A stretch of 64,000 nucleotides of DNA. It comes from Acidobacteriota bacterium (GTDB lineage Bacteria > Acidobacteriota > Terriglobia > Bryobacterales > UBA6623). Within the stretch, counting starts at the first letter, position 1. Each line of letters starts with the position of its first letter. A model generated the notes under the pieces. It saw nothing but the letters and a program-made list of their open reading frames with translations, was not told the origin of the DNA and did no database searches. Location of the stretch: NCBI GenBank assembly GCA_016125275.1, contig WGMB01000005.1, forward strand, positions 315,001-379,000, written 5' to 3'. Of this stretch, positions 35,731 to 50,417 are shown piece by piece. Both the position numbers and the translations under genes were made by a program.

Positions 35731-36429
35731 TCACGGGTCTTCCGCCAATCGGTATCCGACGCCGGGCTCGGTGAGGATGTACCTTGGACGGGCGGGCTGC
35801 TCCTCGATCTTGCGGCGCAACTGCGACATGTGGACTCGCAGATAGTTGTTGTGCTCGACAAAGTTCGGGCCCCAGACTTCCTTCAACAACTGGCGGTGGG
35901 TGAGCATTCGCCCCGGGTGTCGAGCGAGCGTCGTTAGCAGCTTGTACTCGATGGGTGTGAGGTGGACGTCCTGGCCATCGACTCGCACCCAGCGCGCGGC
36001 CAGATCGACCTCCAAGCCGCCGGCCTTGAAACGAGTCGCCTCGGTACCGGTTCGAACAGTCGCTGCATGCCGCAACGCCACACGCAGCCGCGCCAACAGC
36101 TCGCCGACGCCAAACGGCTTGCTCACATAGTCGTCCGCCCCAGCGTCTAGCGCTTCCACTTTGTACTTCTCTTGTCCGCGCGCTGAGATCACAACGATCG
36201 GTGTGGCGCTCCAGCCGCGGACGCGGTGGATCACATCCACGCCATCCAGATCCGGCAGCCCGAGGTCGAGCAGGATGAGCTCCGGGCGTCGGGCCGCTGC
36301 TTCGATCACACCTTGCTCACCCGTTTCTGCAAAGAGCAGGCGGTATCCCTCAGCCTCCAGGATGACGCGGAGCCAGCGTCGCATCTCGCAGTCATCCTCG
36401 ATCAGCAGGATATTGGGGGGCGACATCAT
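35731..36429 (-). CDS. kdpE: KDP operon response regulator
   Basis: 232 residues, OmpR-family. The receiver has the acidic pair LIEDDCEMRRWL, phospho-Asp in LILLDLGLPDLDGVDV and Lys in DYVSKPFGVGELLARL. The C-terminal winged helix shows HLTPIEYKLLTTLARHPGR and YLRVHMSQLRRKIEE. It activates kdp transcription when phosphorylated by KdpD. Its start overlaps the kdpD stop by ATGA. Confidence 0.95.
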   Translation of the reverse strand: MMSPPNILLIEDDCEMRRWLRVILEAEGYRLLFAETGEQGVIEAAARRPELILLDLGLPDLDGVDVIHRVRGWSATPIVVISARGQEKYKVEALDAGADDYVSKPFGVGELLARLRVALRHAATVRTGTEATRFKAGGLEVDLAARWVRVDGQDVHLTPIEYKLLTTLARHPGRMLTHRQLLKEVWGPNFVEHNNYLRVHMSQLRRKIEEQPARPRYILTEPGVGYRLAEDP

Positions 36430-39110
36430 GCCCGCGCCTCAGGACCGAAAGGTGGCGGGTCCTCTGGAAGGGGCAGGGACACGCGGAGGCAAGCGCCCCC
36501 TCCGTCCCGGTTGCGGGCCTCGATAGTCCCGCCATGAGCGCGCACGATAGCGCCGCAAATCGTTAACCCAATGCCGGCGCCGCCCCTTTCGGTCGGTTGG
36601 GCGCGATAGAACCTCTCGAACGCTCTCCTCTCTTCACCAGGAGTGAAGCCGCGACCGCGGTCACAGATCTCCAGGACTACAACGCCCGGATCGCGCATTG
36701 CCTTGACTTCGATGGGGGAACCCGCCGGGCTATAGCGTTCAGCGTTCTCGAGCAGGTTAATCAGCACTTGCTCGAGGAGTAAGCCGTCGACGCGGATGAG
36801 CGACAGCTCCGGCGCAATGCTGATGCAGAGTTCGCGTCCCGCCAGACTCCGCTCCAGTTGTGACAGGGCTGCCCCGATGAGCTCCTCTGGCGGGTGCCAA
36901 TCAAGATTGAGCTTTAGGTCTCCCGACTGAACGCGCGTCAGGTCGAGGAGGTTGTGTACGAGCCGATTAAGTCGGTCGGCCTCACTCCTGGCTGTCTCGA
37001 GTAACTCCTTCTGCTGGTCGGCCGGCAACCGCTCCCCGCGCTCTAGTATGCCGCTCAACGCTCCCTGAATCGTAGCGAGCGGGGTCCTCAGGTCATGCGA
37101 CACAGCGCTAAGCAACGCGTTGCGCATCCTCTCTGTTTCCACTTCAACTTCAGCTTCTTGAGCAATATGAGCTAGCCGAGTCCTGTCGAGGGCCGCCCCG
37201 GCCTGCCCGACGATGGCTTCGAGCAGGCGCATGCGCTCAGGGTCCTGGAACCCGTGCACTTCCGCAGGCCGCACCGCGAGCGCTCCAAGTGTTCGCCCTC
37301 CAGCGCCTGGGATGGGTAGATGGAGGGCTTCCGCGCCGGACAGGGTGGCGGTTCCCAGGCCGGCGCGGCGCCCGTTGTCGGCAACCCACTGAGCTACGCC
37401 GATCTCGCGGGCGTTGATCCATTCGCCGTCGTGCGACGTTGTCCGCAAGACCACCCGAGAATGCTCCCCAAGCAGGAAGGCGGCGACCTCAGCTTCGAAT
37501 GTCTCGGCGATCTGACGAGCGGCGCTCGCCAGTACCTCCCCTTCGGAGCCTACGGCGGACAAGGAGCGAGTCGCTTCAAAAAGCGCATGCGTCCGCCGTT
37601 CCCGCTCGACCGCAAAGGACGCCTGGGCGCGCACTCGAGATGTCAGGCCGCTGATCGTCAAGCCCACGATCAACATCACGACAAAGGTAATTACGAACTG
37701 CGCGCGGTCGATCGCCAACGTGTAGTAGGGCGTAGTGAAGAAGAAATTGAATGTGGTCGCGCTGAGCAGGCAAGCGGCCAAGCCCGGGCCATGCGAGGTT
37801 CGGATCGAGACGCCGACGATTCCTAGCAGGTAGATCATCACCACATCCGCAAGGTCAATCCCCGGCTGCAGCGACAGGCCCAGGAGCGTACTTCCGAGGA
37901 CGACTAGGACCGCGACAGCGTACTCACGCCAAGGAATCTTGGATCTCAGCCCGTGGATCGGCGCGATCTCGCTTCCCTTGATCCTTGCGCTGACCGCGTA
38001 GATGTCGATCTCGCCGCTCTGGTCGACGAGCCGATCGAGAATGGAGCCTCGCAGGGCGCGTTTCCACAATGGCTCCGCCGGTTTGCCGATGAGGATCTTG
38101 CTGACGTTGCGGGAGCGCGCGAAGGCGAGCGCCTCGGTGGTGACATTGTCGCCACTCAGTGTGATGGTCTCGGCGCCTAGCTGCTCCGCTAGGTGGAGCG
38201 CCTCATATGCGCGGGATCGGACCGCATCGGGGAGACGACTCCAGTCTGGAGTCTGAACATTGACGACGATCCAGGCCGCATGGAGCTGCGTCGCCGTGCG
38301 CTTGGCGGCTCTCACGAGCTGCTTGGCGAAGGGACTCGGCCCGATGCAGACCATGAGACGTTCCGCCACCGGCCAGGTCTCTTGCACGGTGTGCGCTACG
38401 CGGTAACCGCGCATCTGCGCATCGACGTTTTCCGCGACCTTGCGCAGGGCCATTTCCCGCAGCGCGATGAGATTTCCTTTGCGGAAGAACTGCTGTGAGG
38501 CCAACTTGGCTTGGTCGGGAACGTAGACTTTGCCCTCGGAGAATCTTTGCAGGAGTTCGTCCGGGGGCAAGTCGACCAGTTCGATCTCGTCGGACTCAGC
38601 CAGGATGAAGTCGGGCACGGTCTCACGGACAGGAATCCCTGTGATGGCGGAAACCACGTCGTTGAGGCTCTCAACATGTTGCACGTTGATGGTTGTGTAG
38701 ACGTCGATTCCTGCGTCGAGGATCTCTTCGACGTCCTGCCAGCGTTTGGCGTGGCGGCTGCCGGAGCTGTTGGTGTGGGCGAGTTCGTCAACCAACAGCA
38801 CTTCCGGCCGGCGGGCGAGCGACGCATCGAGGTCGAGCTCGCGAAGGCTGGTTCCGCGATACTCGACCCGCTGTGGAGGAAGTTGCTCCAGGCCGGCGAG
38901 TAGGGCTTCGGTTTCCGGGCGCCCATGCGGCTCGACATACCCTATGACGACATCCCGTCCTGACTCGCGGAGGCGCCGCGCGGCCTGTAGCATGGCATAG
39001 GTCTTCCCGACGCCGGCGGCCATGCCGAAGAAGACCTTCAGCCGGCCGCGCGCTCGCTTCTGCTCCTCAAGTCGAACCCGTTGCAGCAACTGATCCGGGT
39101 CGGGTCTCAT
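36426..39110 (-). CDS. kdpD: KDP sensor histidine kinase
   Basis: 894 residues, normal for KdpD. The N-terminal KdpD domain has Walker A FGMAAGVGKTYAML (about residue 30) and LLVDELAHTNSSGSRHAKRW. A Usp-like domain follows (about residues 250-370), then four TM helices (about 395-500), a GAF-like domain, HisKA with SAVSHDLRTPLATIQG, and HATPase with ENAERYSPAG and DRGRGFTPGEE. It senses potassium limitation and turgor at the inner membrane and phosphorylates KdpE. It overlaps kdpC and kdpE by four bases each. Confidence 0.96.
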   Translation of the reverse strand: MRPDPDQLLQRVRLEEQKRARGRLKVFFGMAAGVGKTYAMLQAARRLRESGRDVVIGYVEPHGRPETEALLAGLEQLPPQRVEYRGTSLRELDLDASLARRPEVLLVDELAHTNSSGSRHAKRWQDVEEILDAGIDVYTTINVQHVESLNDVVSAITGIPVRETVPDFILAESDEIELVDLPPDELLQRFSEGKVYVPDQAKLASQQFFRKGNLIALREMALRKVAENVDAQMRGYRVAHTVQETWPVAERLMVCIGPSPFAKQLVRAAKRTATQLHAAWIVVNVQTPDWSRLPDAVRSRAYEALHLAEQLGAETITLSGDNVTTEALAFARSRNVSKILIGKPAEPLWKRALRGSILDRLVDQSGEIDIYAVSARIKGSEIAPIHGLRSKIPWREYAVAVLVVLGSTLLGLSLQPGIDLADVVMIYLLGIVGVSIRTSHGPGLAACLLSATTFNFFFTTPYYTLAIDRAQFVITFVVMLIVGLTISGLTSRVRAQASFAVERERRTHALFEATRSLSAVGSEGEVLASAARQIAETFEAEVAAFLLGEHSRVVLRTTSHDGEWINAREIGVAQWVADNGRRAGLGTATLSGAEALHLPIPGAGGRTLGALAVRPAEVHGFQDPERMRLLEAIVGQAGAALDRTRLAHIAQEAEVEVETERMRNALLSAVSHDLRTPLATIQGALSGILERGERLPADQQKELLETARSEADRLNRLVHNLLDLTRVQSGDLKLNLDWHPPEELIGAALSQLERSLAGRELCISIAPELSLIRVDGLLLEQVLINLLENAERYSPAGSPIEVKAMRDPGVVVLEICDRGRGFTPGEERRAFERFYRAQPTERGGAGIGLTICGAIVRAHGGTIEARNRDGGGACLRVSLPLPEDPPPFGPEARA

Positions 39111-39730
39111 TGAGCTCCGCGCGACGGTTTCGGGCGGTCCAGTAATTCTTGCTCGAGGGCGAGGTTCAGCATCAGAACATTCACCCTAGGCTGCCCCAGA
39201 AAACCCCAGGTCGGCCGTTCGAGATGGTCGTCGACGAGCTGCCGGACACGGTCGACCGAAATGGCTCGAGCATGCGCCACTCGGCTAGCTTGATAGTACG
39301 CCGCCTGTGGCGAGATGTGCGGATCGAGACCGCTCGCGGATGCGGTGACCAGGTCGATGGGAACAGGAGTGTTGTTCCCAGGGTCAGCCTTCCGTAGCGC
39401 ATCGGTCCGGGCGGCCGCTTGCTCGTGGAATGCTTTCCCGAACGGGCTGAGATTTGAGCCCGAAGATGCGTCCGCCCGATAGGGGACGGGCTCGGTGGCC
39501 GAAGGGCGACCCCAGAAGTGTTGGGGATCGTCGAACGATTGGCCGACCAGCTCCGATCCGACGAGTTGGCCCGCTAGAACCATCGGGTTTCCGTCCGCCC
39601 GCGAAGACATCGTCAGCCGCGCCAAGCCGGTCATGACCAGCGGATAGACGACTCCCGTGAGGAGGGTCAACAGCCCCAGCATCCCCAGGGCTTGACGTAA
39701 AGTTGCGGTCACGCTCACTTCCTCCTTCAT
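39107..39730 (-). CDS. kdpC: Potassium-transporting ATPase subunit KdpC
   Basis: 207 residues. A single N-terminal TM helix ([20 protein letters not shown]) is followed by [40 protein letters not shown] and [20 protein letters not shown], all KdpC signatures. It stabilises the KdpFABC complex. Four-base overlaps with kdpB and kdpD indicate translational coupling. Confidence 0.96.
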
Positions 39731-41799
39731 GCAATCCCGCCCGCCGCCAGGATCATGTCGATTATCTTGATGCCCAAGAAGGGCGCAGCGACCCCGCCCA
39801 GGCCGTAGATCAACAAGTGACGCCTGAGCAGGTTGTCCGCACTGTCCGGCCGATACTCCACGCCCCGCAACGCGACGGGAATCAGCGCGACGATGATCAA
39901 GGCGTTGAAAATGACCGCCGCGAGGATGGCGCTCGACGGGTTGGCCAGCCCCATGACGTTTAGAGCGTTGAGCTGAGGGTATGCGCTTGCGAAAGCGGCG
40001 GGAATGATGGCGAAGTACTTCGCGACGTCGTTAGCGGTCGAGAACGTGGTGAGGGCGCCGCGGGTGATCAGCATCTGCTTGCCCACTCGTACGACCTCGA
40101 GGAGCTTTGTGGGATTTGAATCGAGGTCGATCAGATTGGCGGCTTCCTTGGCGGCCTGCGTGCCGCTGTTCATCGCCACGGCGACGTCGGCCTGAGCGAG
40201 CGCCGGCGCGTCGTTTGTGCCGTCCCCAGTCATGGCCACCAGACGGCCCTGGTCTTGATACTTTCGGATGAGCGCCAGCTTGTTTTCGGGCGTCGCCTCT
40301 GCCAGGAAGTCGTCGACACCCGCCTCGGCGGCGATCGCTGCTGCCGTGAGAGGGTTGTCTCCGGTGATCATGACGGTCTTGATCCCTGCGCGACGGAGCT
40401 CGCCAAAACGCTCGCGGATGCCGCCCTTGACCACGTCTTTGAGCTGGATCACGCCGAGCGTATTCGACCCCTCGGCTACGACCAAGGGCGTGCCGCCCTG
40501 CTTCGAGATCATATCTACGCTGCGACGGATGGCCTCAGGGAAGGAGCCGCCCTCATTCTGGACAAACTTCTCGATGGCATCCGCGGAGCCCTTGCGGATA
40601 CGCAGGCCCTGGATGTCCACTCCGCTCATGCGTGTTCGCGCCGAAAACGGGACAAATCTTGCGCCCAAGGTCTCGATGTCCCGTTCACGCAGGTTGAAGC
40701 TTTTCTTAGCGAGAACCACGATGCTGCGCCCCTCGGGGGTTTCATCCGACAAAGACGAGAGCTGTGCGGCGTCGGCGAGCTCTTTCACGTCCACGCCCGG
40801 GGCCGGTACGAAGGCGGTCGCCTGACGGTTGCCAAGAGTGATCGTTCCCGTCTTATCGAGCAACAGCACGTCCACGTCGCCCGCGGCTTCGACTGCCCGC
40901 CCCGACATCGCTAGAACATTGGCCTGCAGCATGCGGTCCATGCCCGCGATGCCTATGGCCGAAAGCAGCCCGCCGATCGTTGTCGGAATAAGGCAAACCA
41001 GGAGCGCCACGAGTGTGGTGACCGTGATGGGCTTGCCGGCGCCGGCGGCCTGGACGCTGAAGAGCGAGAACGGCAGCAAGGTTACCGTAGCCAGGAGGAA
41101 GACGATGGTCATGGCGGCCAGAAGGATCGTCAAGGCGACCTCGTTGGGAGTCTTCTGCCGGGCCGCGCCTTCGACCATCGCGATCATGTGGTCCAGAAAG
41201 CTTTCACCCGGCTGCGAGGTGACGCGAATGACAAGCCAGTCCGAAAGCACCTTGGTGCCGCCCGTGACGCTCGACCGGTCGCCGCCGCTCTCGCGAATGA
41301 CCGGTGCGCTCTCGCCGGTGACAGCGCTTTCGTCGACGGAAGCCACTCCCTCAACGACCTCGCCGTCCGCTGGGATAATCCAGTCGGTCTCAACAAGGAC
41401 GATGTCGCCCGTCTTGAGCTCATCGGATCGAACGACCTGCCAGTCATCGCTGTATCGAGCATCTTTGAGCAGCCGCGCCGCGGTGGATGTACGGGCTTTT
41501 CTCAAACTTTCTGCTTGAGCCTTTCCGCGCCCTTCCGCCATCGCCTCGGCAAAGTTCGCAAAGAGGATTGTGAACCATAGCCAGAGCGTGATCGCCCCAA
41601 TGAACCACGCCGGGGCTTCGCCTTGGCCGTCGAGGGAGTCGAAGAAGAGCATCGTCGTGAGAGTGGCGCCTGCTCCCACGACGAACATCACCGGGTTGCG
41701 CACCTGAACGCGGGGGTCGAGCTTGGCAAAGGCGTCGCGCCCCGCCGAGAACAGGATGTCGCGGTCGAAGAGTCTCAGTTCTTTGGTGGATGTCGACAT
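39727..41799 (-). CDS. kdpB: Potassium-transporting P-type ATPase subunit KdpB
   Basis: 690 residues. P-type ATPase with phosphorylation site [13 protein letters not shown], actuator loop [20 protein letters not shown], hinge [20 protein letters not shown], and the membrane helices of the family. It hydrolyses ATP to drive high-affinity potassium uptake through KdpA. It lies 9 bases downstream of kdpA. Confidence 0.97.
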
Positions 41800-41808
41800 C
41801 GAAGGCCC

Positions 41809-43509
41809 TCAGTTCCCCGCCACCACCAGGTGTTCGGCGATTGGGCCCAGCGCCAACGCGGGGACGAAGGCGAGCGCCCCGACCACGACTACGACCCCTG
41901 ACAGGAAGAAGATGAAGAGCAGCGAGTGCGTCGGCAGCGTGCCTGGGCCCGCCGGGAGTAGCTTCTTCTTCGCCAACGAACCTGCAATGGCCAGCGCCGG
42001 CAAGGCGACCCAGTAACGCGCCGCGAGCATCGCGATAGCGCCCGTCATGTTCGTGGTCGGGGTGTTAGCGCCGTACCCGGCGAATGCGCTGCCGTTGTTG
42101 TTCCCCATTGAGCTGAAGGCGTAGAGGATCTCGCTCAGCCCGTGTGGACCGGCTTCTTGGACTCCGCTCAAGCCGTCCGGCGTAGCGGTCGCGATCGCCG
42201 CTCCGAGCAGCACGACTGCGGGTGGCGTCAGCACGGCGATCGAAGCCATCTTCACCTCGAACGCCTCGACCTTCTTGCCGAGATACTCCGGCGTTCGGCC
42301 GACCATCAGGCCGGCGAGGAAAACGCTGAAGATAACGAACATCAGCATTCCGTAAAGGCCCGAGCCGACGCCGCCGAACACCACCTCTCCAAGTTGCATC
42401 AGAAACATCGGGACCAGCCCTCCCAGCGGTGTGAAGGAGTCGTGCATCGAGTTGACCGAACCATTCGAGGCGGCCGTTGTCGACACGCCCCAGAGAGCTG
42501 AGTTCACGACCCCAAAACGCGTCTCCTTGCCCTCCATGTTGCCGAGACCTTGGTCGATGGGCAGGTCGGCCAGTGTCGGATTGGCCCCCGATTCCAGCCA
42601 GACCGTGACGAGCACGCAGGGAACGAAGACGAGCGCCATGGCAGCAAGGAGGGCCCATCCCTGCCGCACGTCTCCAACCATGCGGCCGAACGTGTAGCAG
42701 AGTGCGGTCGGGATGAGCAAAATGGCGAGCATCTGCAGAAGGTTCGATACCGGGGTCGGATTCTCCAACGGATGGGCCGAGTTGACGTTGAAAAAGCCGC
42801 CCCCGTTTGTCCCGAGTTGCTTGATGGCGATCTGCGAAGCGGCGGGGCCCATGGGCAGTAGCTCCTGGCCTCCCTCTAGGGTTGTGGCCGGCCGATAGTC
42901 GGACAGATTCTGGACGACGCCTTGAGAGACCAGGGCGATCGTCAGCATTGCGGACAGTGGGAGCAAGATGTGGAGGGTTGTCCGAGTCAGGTCGACCCAG
43001 AAGTTCCCGATCATCTCGGTTCCGCGCCGAGCGATGCCACGCGCCAAGGCGGCCAGCACCGCCATTCCGGTCGCTGCGGAGACGAAATTCTGCACGGTCA
43101 GCCCGACCATCTGGCTGAAGTAGCTGAGCGTGGTCTCGCCACCGTAGTTTTGCCAGTTTGTATTCGTCACGAAACTGGCGGTGATGTTGAAAGCCCTGTG
43201 GGGCTCAATGCCCACGAAGCCCCTTGGGTTGAAGGGCAGTAGACCCTGTAATCGCAGGCTGAAGTACAACGCCAGAAAGCCGGCGCCGTTGAACGCGAGA
43301 AGAGCGAATGCATACTGCTTCCATGTCATCTCCGCCTTCGCGGTCACTCCCCCTGCGCGGTAGATGATGCGCTCGACTGGGCCCAGGACCCAATCGAACG
43401 GAGGGTTTCCATCTGAGTACACTCGCGCCGCGTAGGCGCCGAGCGGCTTCACCGCCGCGAGCAGGACGAGCAGGTAGAAGCCGATCTGGGCAAAGTCCTG
43501 GCCGCTCAT
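41809..43509 (-). CDS. kdpA: Potassium-transporting ATPase subunit KdpA
   Basis: 566 residues from ATG 43509. The start is fixed by the typical MSGQDFAQIGFYLLVLLAAV and by a four-base ATGA overlap with kdpF. It has four pseudo-repeats with potassium selectivity loops, including FVTNTNWQNYGGE, LGTNGGGFFNVNSAHPLENP and SSMGNNNGSAFAGYGANTP. It forms the potassium channel-like subunit of KdpFABC. Confidence 0.97.
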   Translation of the reverse strand: MSGQDFAQIGFYLLVLLAAVKPLGAYAARVYSDGNPPFDWVLGPVERIIYRAGGVTAKAEMTWKQYAFALLAFNGAGFLALYFSLRLQGLLPFNPRGFVGIEPHRAFNITASFVTNTNWQNYGGETTLSYFSQMVGLTVQNFVSAATGMAVLAALARGIARRGTEMIGNFWVDLTRTTLHILLPLSAMLTIALVSQGVVQNLSDYRPATTLEGGQELLPMGPAASQIAIKQLGTNGGGFFNVNSAHPLENPTPVSNLLQMLAILLIPTALCYTFGRMVGDVRQGWALLAAMALVFVPCVLVTVWLESGANPTLADLPIDQGLGNMEGKETRFGVVNSALWGVSTTAASNGSVNSMHDSFTPLGGLVPMFLMQLGEVVFGGVGSGLYGMLMFVIFSVFLAGLMVGRTPEYLGKKVEAFEVKMASIAVLTPPAVVLLGAAIATATPDGLSGVQEAGPHGLSEILYAFSSMGNNNGSAFAGYGANTPTTNMTGAIAMLAARYWVALPALAIAGSLAKKKLLPAGPGTLPTHSLLFIFFLSGVVVVVGALAFVPALALGPIAEHLVVAGN

Positions 43510-43598
43510 GAAAACAGCTCCGGCTTGAGCAAGACGACGCTGAGGTAGACGAGAAGCCCCACAGCCAAGCCGGCTCCGATTGCGTACCATGGGTCCAT
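43506..43598 (-). CDS. kdpF: KDP complex small subunit KdpF
   Basis: 30 residues, MDPWYAIGAGLAVGLLVYLS then VVLLKPELFS, a single TM helix ending in the KdpF hallmark KPExF. Start ATG 43598 is preceded by AGGAGG. It overlaps kdpA by ATGA. KdpF stabilises the KdpABC complex. Confidence 0.9.
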   Translation of the reverse strand: MDPWYAIGAGLAVGLLVYLSVVLLKPELFS

Positions 43599-44100: not shown

Positions 44101-47100
44101 CTAGGTCTTGGTGATATGAAGATCGCCGAGCGGCCTGCGGCGACGCATCCGCGCGGCCACGACGCATCCGGCGACCGTCGAACCAACGCAGCAGATCAGC
44201 AGCAACGCCAGGTTGTCGGCCAGAAAGTCGCGTGCGGAGTGGGCCAGGCGACGGATCTCCTCGGCCGTCATCTCCACTCTGGTGATCTTCATGTCGTTGA
44301 CTCGAGGGGAGGGGCCGCGTTCGGGCGTCCGCGTGGTCTGGTTCGCCGGAGCCGGCTTCACCGGGCTCGGCCAAGGCTCGAAGGCCCGCGCCATCTCTTT
44401 CGAGAAGTCTTCCAACTGCTCCGGAGCGATCCGGGATTGGGAGAGGCGTTGGGCTTCCCGCATCACGTGCTCCTGGAGCTTCCGGTTGCCGCAGGTGTTG
44501 CCCGAACAGGCCGGCCCCAGCTCCGACACCAGACGCACGTACTCCCCGACCAGCACCTCGCGCTGCTCGTCAGTGAATTGGTAGGTTCCCTGGCGATCGA
44601 CTTCGAGCAGCCGCGCCACCAAATTCTGGCGCCCGGCCGGGTTCGACTCTTCAAAGAACTCCGTCAGGCCCAAGTCATACTCATCGCCGACGTACACGTC
44701 GTAGACCTTCTGCCAAACCGTCGGAGAGATCGTCTCGGGCGCCGTCGCCTGCCAACCGTACAGATACTCGACGGCCTTCACCATCTCGCGGGCCCCGGAG
44801 TAGCCCTCCTTTTGCATTTCGGAGATCCACTGCGGGTTCCAATTCCGCGCGTTGAGCTCTCGGGCGATCGCGTAGCGCGCGTCTTCCACGCGCTCTTCCC
44901 CGGGCTTGCGTAGGTCGTTCAGGTACAGCCTGGGCTTTGCGCCGACCGATTCGGAAGCCACGCGCAGGCCGCCCATCCACTGGTAAACGTCGTCGTTGTC
45001 GACCGCTCCGTAGAGATTGGACGTACGGCTATGGAGGATCGCCGCGTTGTCCCGGAGGTGGCTCTCGAGCAGCTTCGGAGCCGACCGGCCCCACGACTTC
45101 TCGGTGTAGGCGAAATTCATCTTCGACAGGTAGAGCTCGGCCATCGTCTCCGGCTCCTCCACGTCACGGCTCTGCTCGACGAAGCGGCTGATGCCGAAGC
45201 CGTAGGCGCCGGGCGCCGTCGTGAACACGCGCGCCCCGGCCAGGTCCTCCGCTTCTTCTTCAGGCACGCCTTCGGCGATCAGCCGTTCGCGGACGTCCGC
45301 GTTCCGACGGCTCAGCGCGTTGTCGCCCGCTCCGGCTGCAAGGCGCGCCGCCCGGTCGAGCTGGATGATCTTCTCCGCCATGCCGTCGCGATAGAGGCCG
45401 CTGACCGTGAAGACCACATTGACCCTGGGCCGTCCGAGCTGCTCCTCGGGAATCAAAGCCAACCTGTCGACATAGCCCCGGGCGTTCCACTCGGGCCGAA
45501 CGCCCATCAGGTACAGCGCCTGGGCCTCCATCGCCCCTTGGTGACGGCCGCTCTCTCCCATCCACAGAATCATCGAGACGTGTTCGGGAATCTTGCCGTC
45601 GCGCTCGAGCTGTTTCTCGAGCAGTTGTTGCGCCAGACGTTTGCCGACCTCCCAGCCGGCCGGAGTAGGCATCATCCGCGGGTCGCCCTGGTGCAGATTC
45701 CGGCCGGCGGGCAAAGCGTCGGGGACGGCCAGCGGGTCTCCGACCAAGCCGCTCGGCAGAAACTCGCCGCGAAGCTGCTCCACCAACGCGGCGAGCTCTC
45801 GTCCGGGAGACTCTTGCAGCCGGTCGAGCCACAGGTGCGCTTCGTCAAAGAGGCGGAAAACCTTCTCGCGCAGCCCCTCATCGAACGAGTCCGGAACCGT
45901 CGGGGCCACTCCTTCGAAGACCGCGTCACGCCATGCATCGAGGTAAGGCTCCACCGTTTCGAGCTCCTCGGCCAGGAAGGCGTTGGTCAGCAAAGCCAAC
46001 AATCCCGCGCGACGGCGCTCCTCCGACGGCAGCGTTCCCAGCGTCGGCAGGCCGAGGGGAATCGGCGCTTCCTCCACGGACTCCAGAAAGTCGTGGACCT
46101 GGTTCATGAGCTCCTCCGCCGGCAGATTCTCGACGTCGAGTTGGCGGCCGAGATCGAGCCGCTCGATCTCTCGGAGGGCCGTGTTGGCGTACTCGGCAGC
46201 CAGGAGCGGCGAGTCCGCGTGGCTGTCTCTCCAGCCGTTGAACGCATCGTCGAGCGCCTGGAAGCGCTCCTGTTGCCCTGTCAGCGCGAGCATCGGGGTG
46301 AGGTGCGAGATGTCGACCGCCGCCCCGCGCCGCCGCGCCTGGATCGCTTCGCCGTCGCCGTCCATGATGTAGTAGTTCAGGTTCGGCAGGTCGCCCAAGA
46401 TCGCTTCGGAAGCGTCCCAGCCGGCTTGCCCCACATTCTTGCCCGGCAACCATTCGAGCGTGCCGTGACGACCCATGTGGATGACGGCGTCAGCCCCGAA
46501 CCGATGGCGGTAGAACAGGTAAGCGGCTACGTAGCCGTGGTGCGGCGGCAAGGTCGTGCTGTGCTGGACGCTGGTGTACTCGGCGGAGGATGCGCGGAGC
46601 AGTTGCGGCCCCAAGAAGACGTTGCCGAACTGGACGCCCGGGATGACAAAGAGCTTTTCGCCGTCCCGCGAAGTCGCCACCATGAGCTTAGAAGCCTCCG
46701 GCGGACCCCACCGGTCATTCACGGACTGGCGGAATTTTTGGGGCAGCTCCTCGAACCAGCCCTGATAGGTCTTCATCGGCAACAACGTCACGCCGCCTTC
46801 GTCGACCATCCGGCGCAGCTCTCCTGGAGCCCACTCCTCGACGTTGCGGCCGACTCTCTCGAGCTGATCGAGAATGCCGCCCGCCGTCGGCAGGTTCTGG
46901 CCGACGCGGTAGCTCTCCGCCTGCAGTCGATCCAGCACGGCGCGGATGCTCGGCGCCAGATTGAGATAGCTCGCCCCGATGTTCCCTTTCCCCGGCGGGT
47001 TGTTGTAGTAGAGGATCACCAGCCGCTTCTCCCAGTTGGGCTTTTCGGCCAACGTCACCCACCGGCGGGCGCGCTGGGCCGCCATGCGGACGCGCTCGTC

Positions 47101-48108
47101 GATCGGCCGGGTCCAGTCAAGGCCGCCGTCGGCGCCGGGTTCGGCCGTCGCTACGAGGATGGGCTCCACGGCGCCGTTCGGCTCCGGCGAACCCAGTGAC
47201 GTGGCCACTCGGCTCGGCGTCACGCCGTGGTCGCCCTCCGCCCACTCGGCATAGGACTGCTCGGTCGTCATCAGGTTGATGACGTGGACGTTCAAGCCCT
47301 CGAGAAATGCCGCGTCTTCCGGCTTCGAGATGGCCAGTGTGAAACTCAGCGCCACCTTGATGGGGTCATCGGCCGGCGTCTCCAGAACGGGGCCCAGCTC
47401 ATGGAGCGGCCAACCCGCAACGGCGGCCGCGGCCAGCCCCTCTCCCTCGAGCGCCACCACCACGGCATCGATGAACTTCAGGTCGCCCTTGAGATAGTAA
47501 GTCGGGAAGAACGTGACCACGGCGAGTGCGCCGAGACCGGGCTTTTGGGCCCGATACCAGGACAGGTATTCCCTCATGGTGGGAAACAGTCGCGGAGCGT
47601 CGGGGTGGTAGACGCCTGTGTCGGGGACCTCGACAGGCGGCGCAACTTCGAGCTGACGAGAGCCTCCCGCCTCCTGATAGGCTGCCAGGAAGAAGCCCAG
47701 CATGTTCTGCTCTCCCCCCGCGCGCCAGTACGGCAATAGCCGCAGAGCCAGCGGCGCGGAAAGCTCGAAGCTCCAGGCGCGCTGCACGATCGATGGCACG
47801 TCGGTGACCACCCGCAGCCCGCGGGCGACCCCTTCTCGAACAGGCTCTTCGAGACGATCCAGCAGCGCCTCGGAGGGATGCTCCAGAAACAGCAGTTGCG
47901 CTGCGGCGATGCGGTCGGCGGTCAACTCCGGGTGGCCGTCGGTGGCAAGCAAGCAGTCGCACGCGCCCGGGCCGATCCGCTCCAGGAAGGTCTGGAAAGC
48001 CGCGGGCGCGACCTGCGAGTTCCGCAACACGAACACCGCGTTGGGAATGTCCGCGGCAAGGGCCGCCGAGCACGAGAGCAAGGTCGCGACAGTCAGTTGG
48101 CGTAGCAC
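44101..48108 (-). CDS. Exported, membrane-anchored CobN-like chelatase (HmuS-like)
   Basis: 1335 residues from GTG 48108, preceded by GGGGAG and 8 bases after the receptor stop. The N-terminus LRQLTVATLLSCSAALAAD is a signal peptide. The body is CobN/BchH family: VILYYNNPPGKGNIGASYL, HHGYVAAYLFYRHRFGADAV, HMGRHGTLEWLPGKNVG, and late SRFVEQSRDVEEPETMAELY. A C-terminal TM helix (FLADNLALLLICCVGSTVAG) and basic tail anchor it. Cytosolic CobN has neither signal nor anchor and needs CobS/CobT. Neither is here. Signal, anchor and pairing with a TonB receptor match HmuS of Bacteroidota heme loci, reported to remove iron from heme. Heme is an inference; cobalamin or another tetrapyrrole is possible. 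Confidence 0.85.
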   Translation of the reverse strand: MLRQLTVATLLSCSAALAADIPNAVFVLRNSQVAPAAFQTFLERIGPGACDCLLATDGHPELTADRIAAAQLLFLEHPSEALLDRLEEPVREGVARGLRVVTDVPSIVQRAWSFELSAPLALRLLPYWRAGGEQNMLGFFLAAYQEAGGSRQLEVAPPVEVPDTGVYHPDAPRLFPTMREYLSWYRAQKPGLGALAVVTFFPTYYLKGDLKFIDAVVVALEGEGLAAAAVAGWPLHELGPVLETPADDPIKVALSFTLAISKPEDAAFLEGLNVHVINLMTTEQSYAEWAEGDHGVTPSRVATSLGSPEPNGAVEPILVATAEPGADGGLDWTRPIDERVRMAAQRARRWVTLAEKPNWEKRLVILYYNNPPGKGNIGASYLNLAPSIRAVLDRLQAESYRVGQNLPTAGGILDQLERVGRNVEEWAPGELRRMVDEGGVTLLPMKTYQGWFEELPQKFRQSVNDRWGPPEASKLMVATSRDGEKLFVIPGVQFGNVFLGPQLLRASSAEYTSVQHSTTLPPHHGYVAAYLFYRHRFGADAVIHMGRHGTLEWLPGKNVGQAGWDASEAILGDLPNLNYYIMDGDGEAIQARRRGAAVDISHLTPMLALTGQQERFQALDDAFNGWRDSHADSPLLAAEYANTALREIERLDLGRQLDVENLPAEELMNQVHDFLESVEEAPIPLGLPTLGTLPSEERRRAGLLALLTNAFLAEELETVEPYLDAWRDAVFEGVAPTVPDSFDEGLREKVFRLFDEAHLWLDRLQESPGRELAALVEQLRGEFLPSGLVGDPLAVPDALPAGRNLHQGDPRMMPTPAGWEVGKRLAQQLLEKQLERDGKIPEHVSMILWMGESGRHQGAMEAQALYLMGVRPEWNARGYVDRLALIPEEQLGRPRVNVVFTVSGLYRDGMAEKIIQLDRAARLAAGAGDNALSRRNADVRERLIAEGVPEEEAEDLAGARVFTTAPGAYGFGISRFVEQSRDVEEPETMAELYLSKMNFAYTEKSWGRSAPKLLESHLRDNAAILHSRTSNLYGAVDNDDVYQWMGGLRVASESVGAKPRLYLNDLRKPGEERVEDARYAIARELNARNWNPQWISEMQKEGYSGAREMVKAVEYLYGWQATAPETISPTVWQKVYDVYVGDEYDLGLTEFFEESNPAGRQNLVARLLEVDRQGTYQFTDEQREVLVGEYVRLVSELGPACSGNTCGNRKLQEHVMREAQRLSQSRIAPEQLEDFSKEMARAFEPWPSPVKPAPANQTTRTPERGPSPRVNDMKITRVEMTAEEIRRLAHSARDFLADNLALLLICCVGSTVAGCVVAARMRRRRPLGDLHITKT

Positions 48109-48116
48109 GGCTCCCC

Positions 48117-50417
48117 TCAGAACACCCGCAGGCGAAGGCCCGCGGACACCGTACGGCCCCGCGCCCGGTAGTACTGGAAGTAATTGCGGTCCAAGAGGTT
48201 CGTCCCGTCGACGAACACCGAGACGCGCCGATGAGCGTCGAACGTCAACGTTCCGTCCATCTCGAAGAACGGATCGTAGCCGCGAGGAACGCCGCGGGTG
48301 ACGTCGGTATTCGTGTCGCTGGAGTACTGCTTGCCGACATACCGGCCGGACCACGCCAACGTCCACTTCTTGTAGGCCGCGACGGCCAAGTACGAAGCGG
48401 TGTGAGCAGGCGTCCACGGGATGCGCGCTCCCACCGTTGCGGGGAGAGGATCGTTCTCGGCGATGACCGCGTCGACGTAGGTATAGGTTTCGCTGAGCCG
48501 CAACCAGGAGAACGGCTTTTGCTGTGCGGCGGCCTCGAGGCCTCGGATCTGGCCGCGGCCGGCATTGGTCAACCGTCGCGTGCGCCCGGACGGATCGAAG
48601 TCCAGGTCGGTGATGCGGTAGATCATGTCGGAGAGGCTGTTGTGAAAGTACGTGGCCGTAACGCTGTTGCCGGCCCCAAGCCGCCGCGTCAGACCCGCCT
48701 CGAAGGCCAGCAGCTTCTCCGGCTGGACGCTCGGATTGGCCAGCAGCAGCGACGAGCCGAGGACGAGGTTGCGGTAGAGCTCGTACACCGTGGGGGCGCG
48801 GAAGGCGTTGCCGACGCTCGCGCGAATCTGCCAGTTGTCACCCAGCGAATACAGCGCGGCGACCTTTCCCGTCAAAGCGTTCACGGATCGCTCGGGGTAG
48901 CCGAGAATGGGCTCGCTCGGGCCGGTCTGATTGCCGCCCTGGTAGGTGCGCCAGTAGTCCCAACGGCCTCCGGCCACGACGCGCAATCTCTCGAAGAGAC
49001 TGCGCTGGTATTGCACGTATCCGGCTTGGTTGATGGCCTTTCCGAAGGCCTGCGTCGAGACGGGGCTGAAATTTTCGCGGATTGCGTAGTTGTCGAGGTT
49101 CTGACCGGCGCTGCGAGCGCTGTCGTGACGCGTCTCGGCTCCGAAAGTGAGGACGCTGGCTCCCTGCGTATGGCTCGCTTGGACGTTGCCGTAGAGCCCC
49201 CGGCTGAAGGTGTTGGTGTACGAACCCGGGCCGCCCCGGAGGTCCGCCGAGGCCCCGCGTAAGACGTACCAATCGTGCGGGATGTCATTGACGCCGGCGT
49301 AGACGTCCAGATTCCAGGCCGAGGAGAGCCGGGCCAGTGCGTGCGCTTGGTAGATATTCGTCTCGGTTCCGCTCGGAACTCCGATGTAGCTACTGGGGGA
49401 GACCGTCAGATCGCGGCGGACTCCTCCGTCGAGGAACGAAACCCGGCCCGCGTCGACGGGAGAACCGTCGGCCGCCCGCAGATCAGTGGAGTAGGCGTCG
49501 TAACCCGACTTCCTTTCCTGCCGCAGATACTGCACGCTGGCGAACAGTCGCTCCGAGAACGAGTACTCGCTCCGAACCCGGAAGGCTTCCTGGTTGAACC
49601 AGTTCCGCCCCTGGTCGCCGACCTGGTAGGTCAAGCCGTTCGTGGGGGTGAGCCATCGAGTGACGCCGGTGACAGGGAGCCCCGATCCGTCCGAGGCTGT
49701 CGCACTGCCCAGGATCGGCTCAGCCGAGTAGCCGCCGGTCTGATAGCGGCTGTAGCCGCCGCTGAGCCCGAGTTTGCCAAAAAGCTGCTCCGCCCCGTGG
49801 ATCGAGTACTGGGTCGTGTCTTGGCTGCCGGTCTGGCCGGTCAGTTCCAGCTTTCGCCGGTCGATGGGTCTCGTAATCAGGTTGACGACGCCGCCCATGG
49901 CATTGCCGCCATACAGGGACGAGAACGGGCCGCGCGCGACTTCCACCCGCTCGAATTCGCTGACGCCGAACATCGACCAGTTCACGCCCCCGTAGTAGCT
50001 GGTGTTCATGGGTTGACCATCCAGCAGGATCAAGGTTCGGTATTGGCTGCCCCGCCCGGAAAAGCCCCGTAAGCCGAGCCCAAAGTCGCTGTCGGCCGGG
50101 CCTTTGGCGCGAGAGGCGTTGACGCCTTCCAAGAGGACCAGGGCCTGGTCGAGCTGCCGAATATTGCGATCTTCGAGCTCTTCCCGAGTCACCACCGAGG
50201 TGGAGACGGGCGTTTCGTCCGCCGGGAGGGGCCCGCGCGTGGCCGTCACGGTCACGGAGGTGCGGACGGGATCCAAGGGATCAACGATCTCCGAGCCGGC
50301 GGGCTTGGAACTGGACGAATCGCCCCCGGGGGCTGGTTCGTCGGCGGCCCAAGCCGTGGGGCAAAACGCGAGCGAGACCAGCAAGGCGAAAACGGATCGA
50401 GCGGGCGACAGAAGCAT
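48117..50417 (-). CDS. TonB-dependent receptor, probably for a tetrapyrrole ligand
   Basis: 766 residues from ATG 50417. The open frame continues upstream without protein-like character. The signal peptide is SVFALLVSLAFCPTAWAA. A plug domain is clear: ETPVSTSVVTREELEDRNIR, YRTLILLDGQPMNTSYYGG, FERVEVARGPFSSLYGGNAM. The barrel ends with NLLDRNYFQYYRARGRTVS and a terminal LRVF. There is no carboxypeptidase-regulatory domain, unlike the receptor at 5.3 kb, and its form is closer to HmuR/BtuB-type receptors. The chelatase gene follows after 8 bases, so they are co-transcribed. Confidence 0.92.
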   Translation of the reverse strand: MLLSPARSVFALLVSLAFCPTAWAADEPAPGGDSSSSKPAGSEIVDPLDPVRTSVTVTATRGPLPADETPVSTSVVTREELEDRNIRQLDQALVLLEGVNASRAKGPADSDFGLGLRGFSGRGSQYRTLILLDGQPMNTSYYGGVNWSMFGVSEFERVEVARGPFSSLYGGNAMGGVVNLITRPIDRRKLELTGQTGSQDTTQYSIHGAEQLFGKLGLSGGYSRYQTGGYSAEPILGSATASDGSGLPVTGVTRWLTPTNGLTYQVGDQGRNWFNQEAFRVRSEYSFSERLFASVQYLRQERKSGYDAYSTDLRAADGSPVDAGRVSFLDGGVRRDLTVSPSSYIGVPSGTETNIYQAHALARLSSAWNLDVYAGVNDIPHDWYVLRGASADLRGGPGSYTNTFSRGLYGNVQASHTQGASVLTFGAETRHDSARSAGQNLDNYAIRENFSPVSTQAFGKAINQAGYVQYQRSLFERLRVVAGGRWDYWRTYQGGNQTGPSEPILGYPERSVNALTGKVAALYSLGDNWQIRASVGNAFRAPTVYELYRNLVLGSSLLLANPSVQPEKLLAFEAGLTRRLGAGNSVTATYFHNSLSDMIYRITDLDFDPSGRTRRLTNAGRGQIRGLEAAAQQKPFSWLRLSETYTYVDAVIAENDPLPATVGARIPWTPAHTASYLAVAAYKKWTLAWSGRYVGKQYSSDTNTDVTRGVPRGYDPFFEMDGTLTFDAHRRVSVFVDGTNLLDRNYFQYYRARGRTVSAGLRLRVF

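Follow-up and report, generated by a model that had tools for sequence, protein, structure and literature searches.

A TonB receptor paired with an exported CobN/HmuS-like chelatase in an Acidobacteriota genome: a possible periplasmic system for corrinoid metal

HmuS of B. thetaiotaomicron (PDB 9d26) is a demonstrated heme de-chelatase (PMC12583661). The available text of that paper assigns HmuU/HmuV to powering the receptor and states that most members of the HmuS family cannot be annotated reliably. The hmu operon is described as containing HmuY, a TonB receptor, a CobN-like protein, a hypothetical protein, a MotA/TolQ/ExbB protein and DUF2149 (PMC10434189). Exported CobN-like proteins are also described in Bacteroides fragilis, where BtuS1 and BtuS2 affect growth on heme iron; the same paper, citing Rodionov 2003, recognizes a third CobN type beside CobN and ChlH (PMC6460266). 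BtuS2 is equated with the HmuS of B. fragilis (PMC13227078). In Chlorobium/Chlorobaculum a CobN-BchHID cluster adjoins a cobalamin TonB receptor, and for Chlorobaculum the paper relays a speculation on cobalt insertion into cobalamin after its import (PMC8620254). Among the literature matches listed, a set with most subscription papers outside its coverage, there is no report of a corrin role for exported chelatases or of HmuS in Acidobacteriota.

Here we analyse a TonB receptor and a CobN/HmuS-like chelatase encoded in the window, i.e. the whole stretch of 64,000 nucleotides under study. Our tentative reading, whose chances we put a shade below even, is that the chelatase acts in the periplasm on corrinoid metal and is coupled to a dedicated importer in the outer membrane. 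L and G numbers below denote loci and genomes, respectively.

The receptor–chelatase pair and its host

The receptor stop codon (TGA, 48119-48117) and the GTG start of the chelatase at 48108 are separated by 8 bases, as read from the sequence, and the CobN-Mg_chel Pfam domain spans chelatase residues 127-1182 (Table 1). By hydropathy and by eye, the chelatase N-terminus MLRQLTVATLLSCSAALAAD resembles a signal peptide and the C-terminus LLLICCVGSTVAGCVVA, followed by ARMRRRRP, a stop-transfer helix. A closely spaced pair with these two terminal features had been proposed in a first-pass annotation of this DNA, and coordinates, Pfam matches and hydropathy confirm it. Both hydrophobic stretches recur in 23/23 scanned rows of the clade to which the protein belongs (the window clade, see below), at hydropathy of at least 1.92 for the N-terminal one and 1.66-2.71 for the C-terminal one. 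Net positive charge follows the C-terminal stretch in 21 of the 23, with zero in L055 and L056. All 11 cytosolic CobN/ChlH control rows are without a C-terminal helix (hydropathy at most 0.61), and one of the cytosolic control rows, L138, does have a hydrophobic N-terminal stretch (2.10). By these stretches the window protein is a predicted exported, membrane-anchored chelatase; that it is not a cytosolic CobN is borne out by the AU test below.

Table 1. Features of the receptor–chelatase locus, in window positions
Feature	Position	Strand	Basis
TonB-dependent outer-membrane receptor	48117-50417	minus	766 aa; Plug and TonB_dep_Rec_b-barrel Pfam matches
Exported CobN/HmuS-like class I chelatase	44101-48108	minus	1335 aa, GTG start; PF02514 E 1.7e-269; tree
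Signal-peptide-like N-terminus of chelatase, residues 1-19, ending ALA	48052-48108	minus	hydropathy 1.92
Predicted C-terminal membrane helix of chelatase, residues 1302-1318, then ARMRRRRP	44155-44205	minus	hydropathy 2.44
His-548, equivalent of HmuS catalytic His-538	46465-46467	minus	alignment
Asp-1040 at the HmuS His-1209 position, Asp as in CobN	44989-44991	minus	alignment, 152 rows
Cys-1201 to Cys-1206 (CSGNTC), C-terminal Cys pair	44491-44508	minus	alignment; common to most exported rows, absent in cytosolic rows

Neither CobS nor CobT was found among the 10 ORFs scanned around the locus, which bears out the absence of such partners that had been noted earlier. No B12 gene or cobalamin riboswitch was detected at the locus either, in the same ORFs and with Rfam. 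Directly downstream of the chelatase lie the potassium-uptake genes kdpABC and kdpDE (35731-43590; kdpA, kdpB, kdpC, kdpD and kdpE), and a divergent ADOP-type permease gene is found upstream of the receptor.

The pair lies in an Acidobacteriota genome, in line with the first-pass annotation (G000; 7.55 Mb, 20 contigs, 97.6% complete). This genome contains a single PF02514 gene, one ferrochelatase, 7 B12-binding domains and only 2 tetrapyrrole-methylase matches. The genome gave no match to CobT_C (PF11775; the same search was positive in 2/14 control genomes), to CbiZ or to DUF2149; a HmuY search found no match in the genome and likewise none in the controls. There are two cobalamin riboswitches, both away from the window locus: one stands upstream of a TonB receptor gene with a CobQ-like gene behind it, and the other upstream of the gene for a BtuF-like binding protein. 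Judged by gene content, the host apparently takes up corrinoids for its own use and does not make the corrin ring itself. The window pair is under neither riboswitch, and this counts against a plain B12-uptake role.

Relation of the chelatase to CobN, ChlH and HmuS

Relatives were fetched as the best 80 of 575 matched places. The main tree (50 rows, 1126 columns), which has 17 locus ids fewer than a 67-row tree and agrees with it, splits cytosolic CobN and ChlH (11 rows) from an exported superclade (39 rows) with support 100/100. Within the latter, HmuS of B. thetaiotaomicron forms a group with L038 and L143 (100/99). The 16 rows of the window clade (100/100) come from Acidobacteriota and Cupriavidus, plus a single MAG labelled Chthonomonas, and in the best tree they stand on a branch apart from HmuS. 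Clustering with cytosolic CobN was the outcome that would have spoken against the first-pass annotation; tree and AU test place the protein outside that group, as a forced window+CobN clade was rejected (p 1.9e-6). A forced window+HmuS clade was not rejected (AU p 0.082).

Comparison with family models and structures gives a mixed picture. The best PDB sequence match of the window chelatase in phmmer is HmuS (440 bits), with ChlH at 367 and CobN at 349 bits. The top NCBIfam matches are CobN models (781 bits, below the CobN cut-off of 1248), and the BchH model scores 556 bits against a cut-off of 829. A structure model of residues 20-1215 (pLDDT 76, pTM 0.65) matches CobN with Z 32.1 (7c6o, rmsd 7.0), HmuS with 31.8 and 31.4 and ChlH with 29.8, the next unrelated fold having 8.8. 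At differences of about 2-3 Z the predicted fold does not separate CobN, HmuS and ChlH.

PF02514 is present in 25/297 genomes of the phylum sample, and the window type in three of them (the host G000, G061 and G281, the last belonging to the same class as the host). Genome G301 carries both a window-type gene and a HmuS-type gene (L143), so the two types are distinct paralogues. L143:1162-5133 and L038:7316-12121 (G206, same phylum as the host) encode chelatases of the HmuS type, in which His-254 and the LDH motif are present. MotA- and DUF2149-like genes adjoin each of them, L038 also lies just after a TonB receptor, and its insert is long but Met-poor. By their sequences these two loci would represent a heme-type system outside Bacteroidota. 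Other arrangements were also seen among the relatives. Two or three exported chelatase genes stand in tandem in the Deltaproteobacteria MAG Gx485_bin53 (L098, L120, L121). In five acidobacterial genomes the chelatase is found as separate N- and C-terminal ORFs (L044, L045, L046, L049 and L050 in G075, G009, G132, G197 and G259; the G259 halves lie on separate contigs), which looks like a conserved division of a CobN/ChlH protein.

The marker residues of HmuS, taken from the available text of PMC12583661, were located in the window protein by alignment. His-538 is kept as His-548 and is conserved across the whole superfamily; Glu-577, Ser-1067 and Ser-1199 are kept as Glu-587, Ser-903 and Ser-1030. 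At the remaining markers the residues differ: His-254 (HGR) corresponds to Leu-258 (motif TLAI), His-1209 to Asp-1040, Glu-1212 to Gln-1043, Trp-1202 to Tyr-1033, Gln-1198 to Thr-1029, Ser-1014 to Met-850 and, in a weakly aligned region, Met-79 to Pro-78. The counterpart of LSLDHxxEFMGG reads AVDNDDVYQWMGG. The Met-rich insertion of HmuS domain IV (at least 22 aa) is absent, and residues 700-790 of the window protein contain 0 Met.

Position 1209 was read from an alignment column over 152 rows, which are related and not independent trials. It is His in 3/3 HmuS-type rows and in 27/28 ChlH/BchH rows (one Arg), and Asp in 25/25 CobN rows. The 26 window-clade rows have Asp (24) or Glu (2), the 66 other exported rows Asp (65) or Glu (1), and a further group of four rows Asp (3) or His (1). 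On these counts protoporphyrin enzymes carry His and corrin enzymes Asp, and we infer that the residue at this position is probably tied to substrate class. The C-terminal Cys pair is present in 26/26 window-clade, 64/66 other exported and 2/3 HmuS-type rows, and in 0/4 rows of the group of four and 0/53 cytosolic rows. L031/L072 and L051/L147 are the same genes and enter the 26 rows with both copies (as loci they are counted once each); the other exported rows include the overlapping pairs L089/L033 and L098/L121. L073, a split ORF, is part of the neighbour counts below and lies outside the alignment counts.

The receptor family and the neighbourhoods of relatives

The window receptor scores 148.5 bits against the NCBIfam B12-receptor model TIGR01779 (cut-off 599.7) and 141.7 bits against the heme-receptor model TIGR01785 (cut-off 316.85). 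B12, heme and siderophore models each match all ten receptors of the family, over which the best single E-value belongs to the heme model; at sequence level the ligand models do not discriminate. In the structure model of the receptor (pLDDT 77), BtuB entries take ranks 1-10 (Z 38.1-36.5), followed by Fiu (36.3) and FoxA (36.1), with the heme receptor ChuA at 34.9. The modelled fold leans slightly to BtuB and does not decide the ligand. Seven of the 10 receptors paired with chelatases of relatives are 41-58% identical to the window receptor, the other three being only distantly similar. In both L056 and L130 the TonB receptor adjoining CbiZ is related at 41-42% to the host receptor that a riboswitch precedes.

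The chelatase directly follows a TonB receptor in 10 related loci (L051, L032, L072, L069, L052, L054, L055, L066, L067 and L070), at a spacing of -4 to +9 bases where both ends are clear. With the same direct order in 10 related loci, the pairing exceeds chance. Three close relatives encode small membrane proteins with an H...HCxxC motif upstream of the receptor (L032:14029-14394, L069:7170-7514, L072:7173-7466). No clear counterpart was seen in the 2 kb upstream of the window receptor, where one chance-like HxnCxxC occurs.

Context counts for the window clade refer to 24 loci besides the window, leaving out L063 and L068, whose contigs hold no full-length ORF. B12-gene matches lie within the fetched flanks of 14/24 loci, 11 of the 14 being from Cupriavidus; CobN follows the exported chelatase in 11/11 Cupriavidus loci, and CobW is found in 10/11. 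Pfam-confirmed CbiZ is located immediately 3' of the chelatase in L056 and L130. In L070, CbiZ and CbiB, both Pfam-confirmed, are divergent from the receptor–chelatase pair and are followed by a cobalamin riboswitch and a BtuR match. Cobalamin riboswitches occur in 3/19 clade loci scanned, the window included: besides L070, in L032, where it separates the chelatase from a second TonB receptor, and in L057, beyond the CobN genes and upstream of a NicO-type transporter. Since the Cupriavidus loci represent one lineage, the window clade has four independent B12 links. No B12 gene or riboswitch was found in 10/25 clade loci (window, L051, L052, L053, L054, L055, L066, L067, L069 and L072). Among 20 arbitrary 20-kb control regions from genomes of the phylum, 1/20 had a B12-gene match (a CobW-like GTPase) and 0/20 a cobalamin riboswitch.

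The CbiZ neighbour cluster comprised nine loci at first; in L112 and L126 the frames overlapped the chelatase and were dropped, leaving seven Pfam-confirmed ones. A crude B12-box pattern was set aside, as it matched inside chelatase genes and missed 2/3 of the Rfam riboswitches. Outside the window clade, Pfam-confirmed CbiZ is found near L080, L091, L116 and L122, corrin-synthesis matches near L079, L088, L098 and L106, other B12 matches near L083 and L092, and nickel genes near L112, L115, L132 and L133. L132, on plasmid pRUNSL01 of Runella slithyformis, places an exported chelatase, a TonB receptor, MotA and DUF2149 in a NiFe-hydrogenase hyp cluster, which suggests a nickel-linked family member.

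The operon form varies within the clade. In 11 loci, the window and the 10 listed above, the receptor is directly upstream and MotA/DUF2149 are missing; in five (L053, L056, L130, L071 and L073) MotA and DUF2149 lie beside the chelatase. The remaining loci, all from Cupriavidus, have neither a direct upstream receptor nor MotA/DUF2149. Among all exported-chelatase loci, MotA and DUF2149 are both present in 56/85. Within the clade they go with the chelatase and not with an adjacent receptor, and may therefore serve the chelatase. We speculate that MotA/DUF2149 could be a proton-driven substitute for the AAA+ motor of the chelatase.

Substrate, metal and described systems

Action on a metallated tetrapyrrole other than heme, which the first-pass annotation had given as its alternative, fits the results best. 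In the corrinoid reading a tetrapyrrole of the corrin type would enter the periplasm through the TonB receptor. The chelatase, fixed in the inner membrane by its C-terminal helix and with its bulk outside the cytosol, would hold the ring between His-548 and Asp-1040. No ATP-driven CobS/CobT motor would be involved in the transfer of metal between ring and periplasm. HmuS is the only exported member with proven chemistry, and by analogy with it we guess that the metal is a little more likely to be removed or exchanged than to be inserted into corrinoids that lack a metal or contain a wrong one. Insertion would suit an importer of corrinoids that has no ring synthesis of its own. Pulling cobalt out of an intact corrin is very difficult, which speaks against simple removal.

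Several observations point to a corrinoid: the well-supported window clade, apart from CobN; the apparent replacement of the HmuS His/His pair by the CobN-type His/Asp pair; B12 genes and riboswitches beside relatives, against 1/20 and 0/20 in the control regions; a host genome in which corrin-ring synthesis and CobT left no trace, but which has B12-binding domains and cobalamin riboswitches; the kinship of the CbiZ-adjoining receptors of L056 and L130 to a riboswitch-preceded host receptor; and the predicted receptor fold, for which BtuB is nearest by a small margin. Against it stand the window locus itself, which has no B12 marker, like the other clade loci without any, the unrejected window+HmuS clade and the E-value of the heme model over the receptor family. 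Asp-bearing exported rows near nickel genes (L112, L115, L132) also weigh against it; Asp may mean just "not protoporphyrin".

A heme de-chelatase pair of the HmuR/HmuS kind was the main proposal of the first-pass annotation; heme would be taken up and its iron released in the periplasm, by an active site that has diverged. We consider it unlikely, although HmuS is the best PDB sequence match (440 bits against 367 for ChlH and 349 for CobN), the protein is exported like HmuS and keeps the catalytic His-538, the HmuS clade is not rejected and the heme model is best over the 10 receptors. His-254, His-1209 with its LSLDHxxEFMGG motif, Glu-1212, Trp-1202 and the Met-rich insert are all missing, DUF2149 has no match in the host genome, no heme-uptake gene was identified beside clade members, and G301 carries a HmuS-type paralogue as well as the window type. 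On these absences and the separate branch, HmuR/HmuS identity is not supported, though the forced clade retains p 0.082. It is also improbable that the receptor imports a metal complex from which the chelatase-like protein strips or carries nickel or zinc. The identified neighbours of the window clade itself are B12 genes, and L112, L132 and L133 fall outside that clade in the trees; the idea draws on exported relatives near NikR (L112 and L115 by BLAST, L133 by annotation), on L132 within its hyp cluster, and on the Zur-linked genes PA1922-PA1925 of P. aeruginosa, which are described as induced by zinc starvation (PMC4542158, PMC8531726). If the protein were simply the CobN subunit of a cobaltochelatase for cobalamin synthesis and its end helices were spurious, the top NCBIfam rank of CobN models (781 bits) and the CobN-like Asp-1040 would be explained. 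This reading is hardly credible, as the score stays below the cut-off of 1248 bits, the AU test rejects the CobN grouping, CobT_C has no match, the end helices are conserved in the clade and 2 tetrapyrrole-methylase matches leave no corrin pathway to serve.

The corrinoid reading can be extended, more doubtfully, to corrin chelatases outside the cytoplasm in general. Corrinoids would be imported by bacteria without ring synthesis, and their central metal would be removed, swapped or inserted in the periplasm with no AAA+ ATPase involved. In many relatives a MotA/ExbB-type proton channel and DUF2149 adjoin the gene and could supply the chelatase with proton-motive force; in the window lineage both are absent from the locus, and the receptor is coupled directly to the chelatase. 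That an exported chelatase is able to strip heme of its iron is established by HmuS. Should Asp versus His at position 1209 distinguish enzymes acting on corrins from those acting on protoporphyrins, a large number of genes currently annotated as CobN could be sorted. If our reading is true, handling of corrinoid metal outside the cytosol is new to B12 biology and bears on the salvage of damaged or metal-free corrinoids by bacteria that depend on others for B12. G301, with both paralogue types in one genome, offers a clean two-gene test case.

Compared with HmuS and hmuYRSTUV, the window locus shares an exported membrane-anchored class I chelatase, an adjoining TonB receptor, His-538, the C-terminal Cys pair and the lack of an AAA+ partner. 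It differs in lacking His-254, the Met-rich insert and His-1209, in whose place it has Asp like CobN; DUF2149 has no match in its genome, and the TonB receptor is there but not the full operon. Its separate branch in the best tree is not a significant exclusion from HmuS (p 0.082). BtuS1 and BtuS2 are likewise exported, membrane-attached CobN-like proteins outside CobN and ChlH (BtuS1 being compared by description); growth tests in the available text of PMC6460266 tie them to heme iron and not to corrinoids. CobN has the same fold (Z 32.1 against 7c6o, rmsd 7.0) and Asp at the 1209 position, but is cytosolic, works with CobS/CobT and lacks the Cys pair in 25/25 rows, and a window+CobN clade is rejected. 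In P. aeruginosa PA1922-PA1925 a TonB receptor is also followed by a CobN-like gene, PA1923, compared by description; this locus is Zur-linked and has the extra genes PA1924/PA1925 (ExbD-like, hypothetical) (PMC4542158, PMC8531726). The Chlorobium/Chlorobaculum cluster, as described in PMC8620254, resembles the window in its CobN-like chelatase beside a TonB receptor and differs in its adjoining BchI/BchD-like motor genes, none of which were found at the window locus. The kind of protein is thus already known from HmuS and BtuS; what is new is an Asp-carrying, corrin-linked clade with its own receptor.
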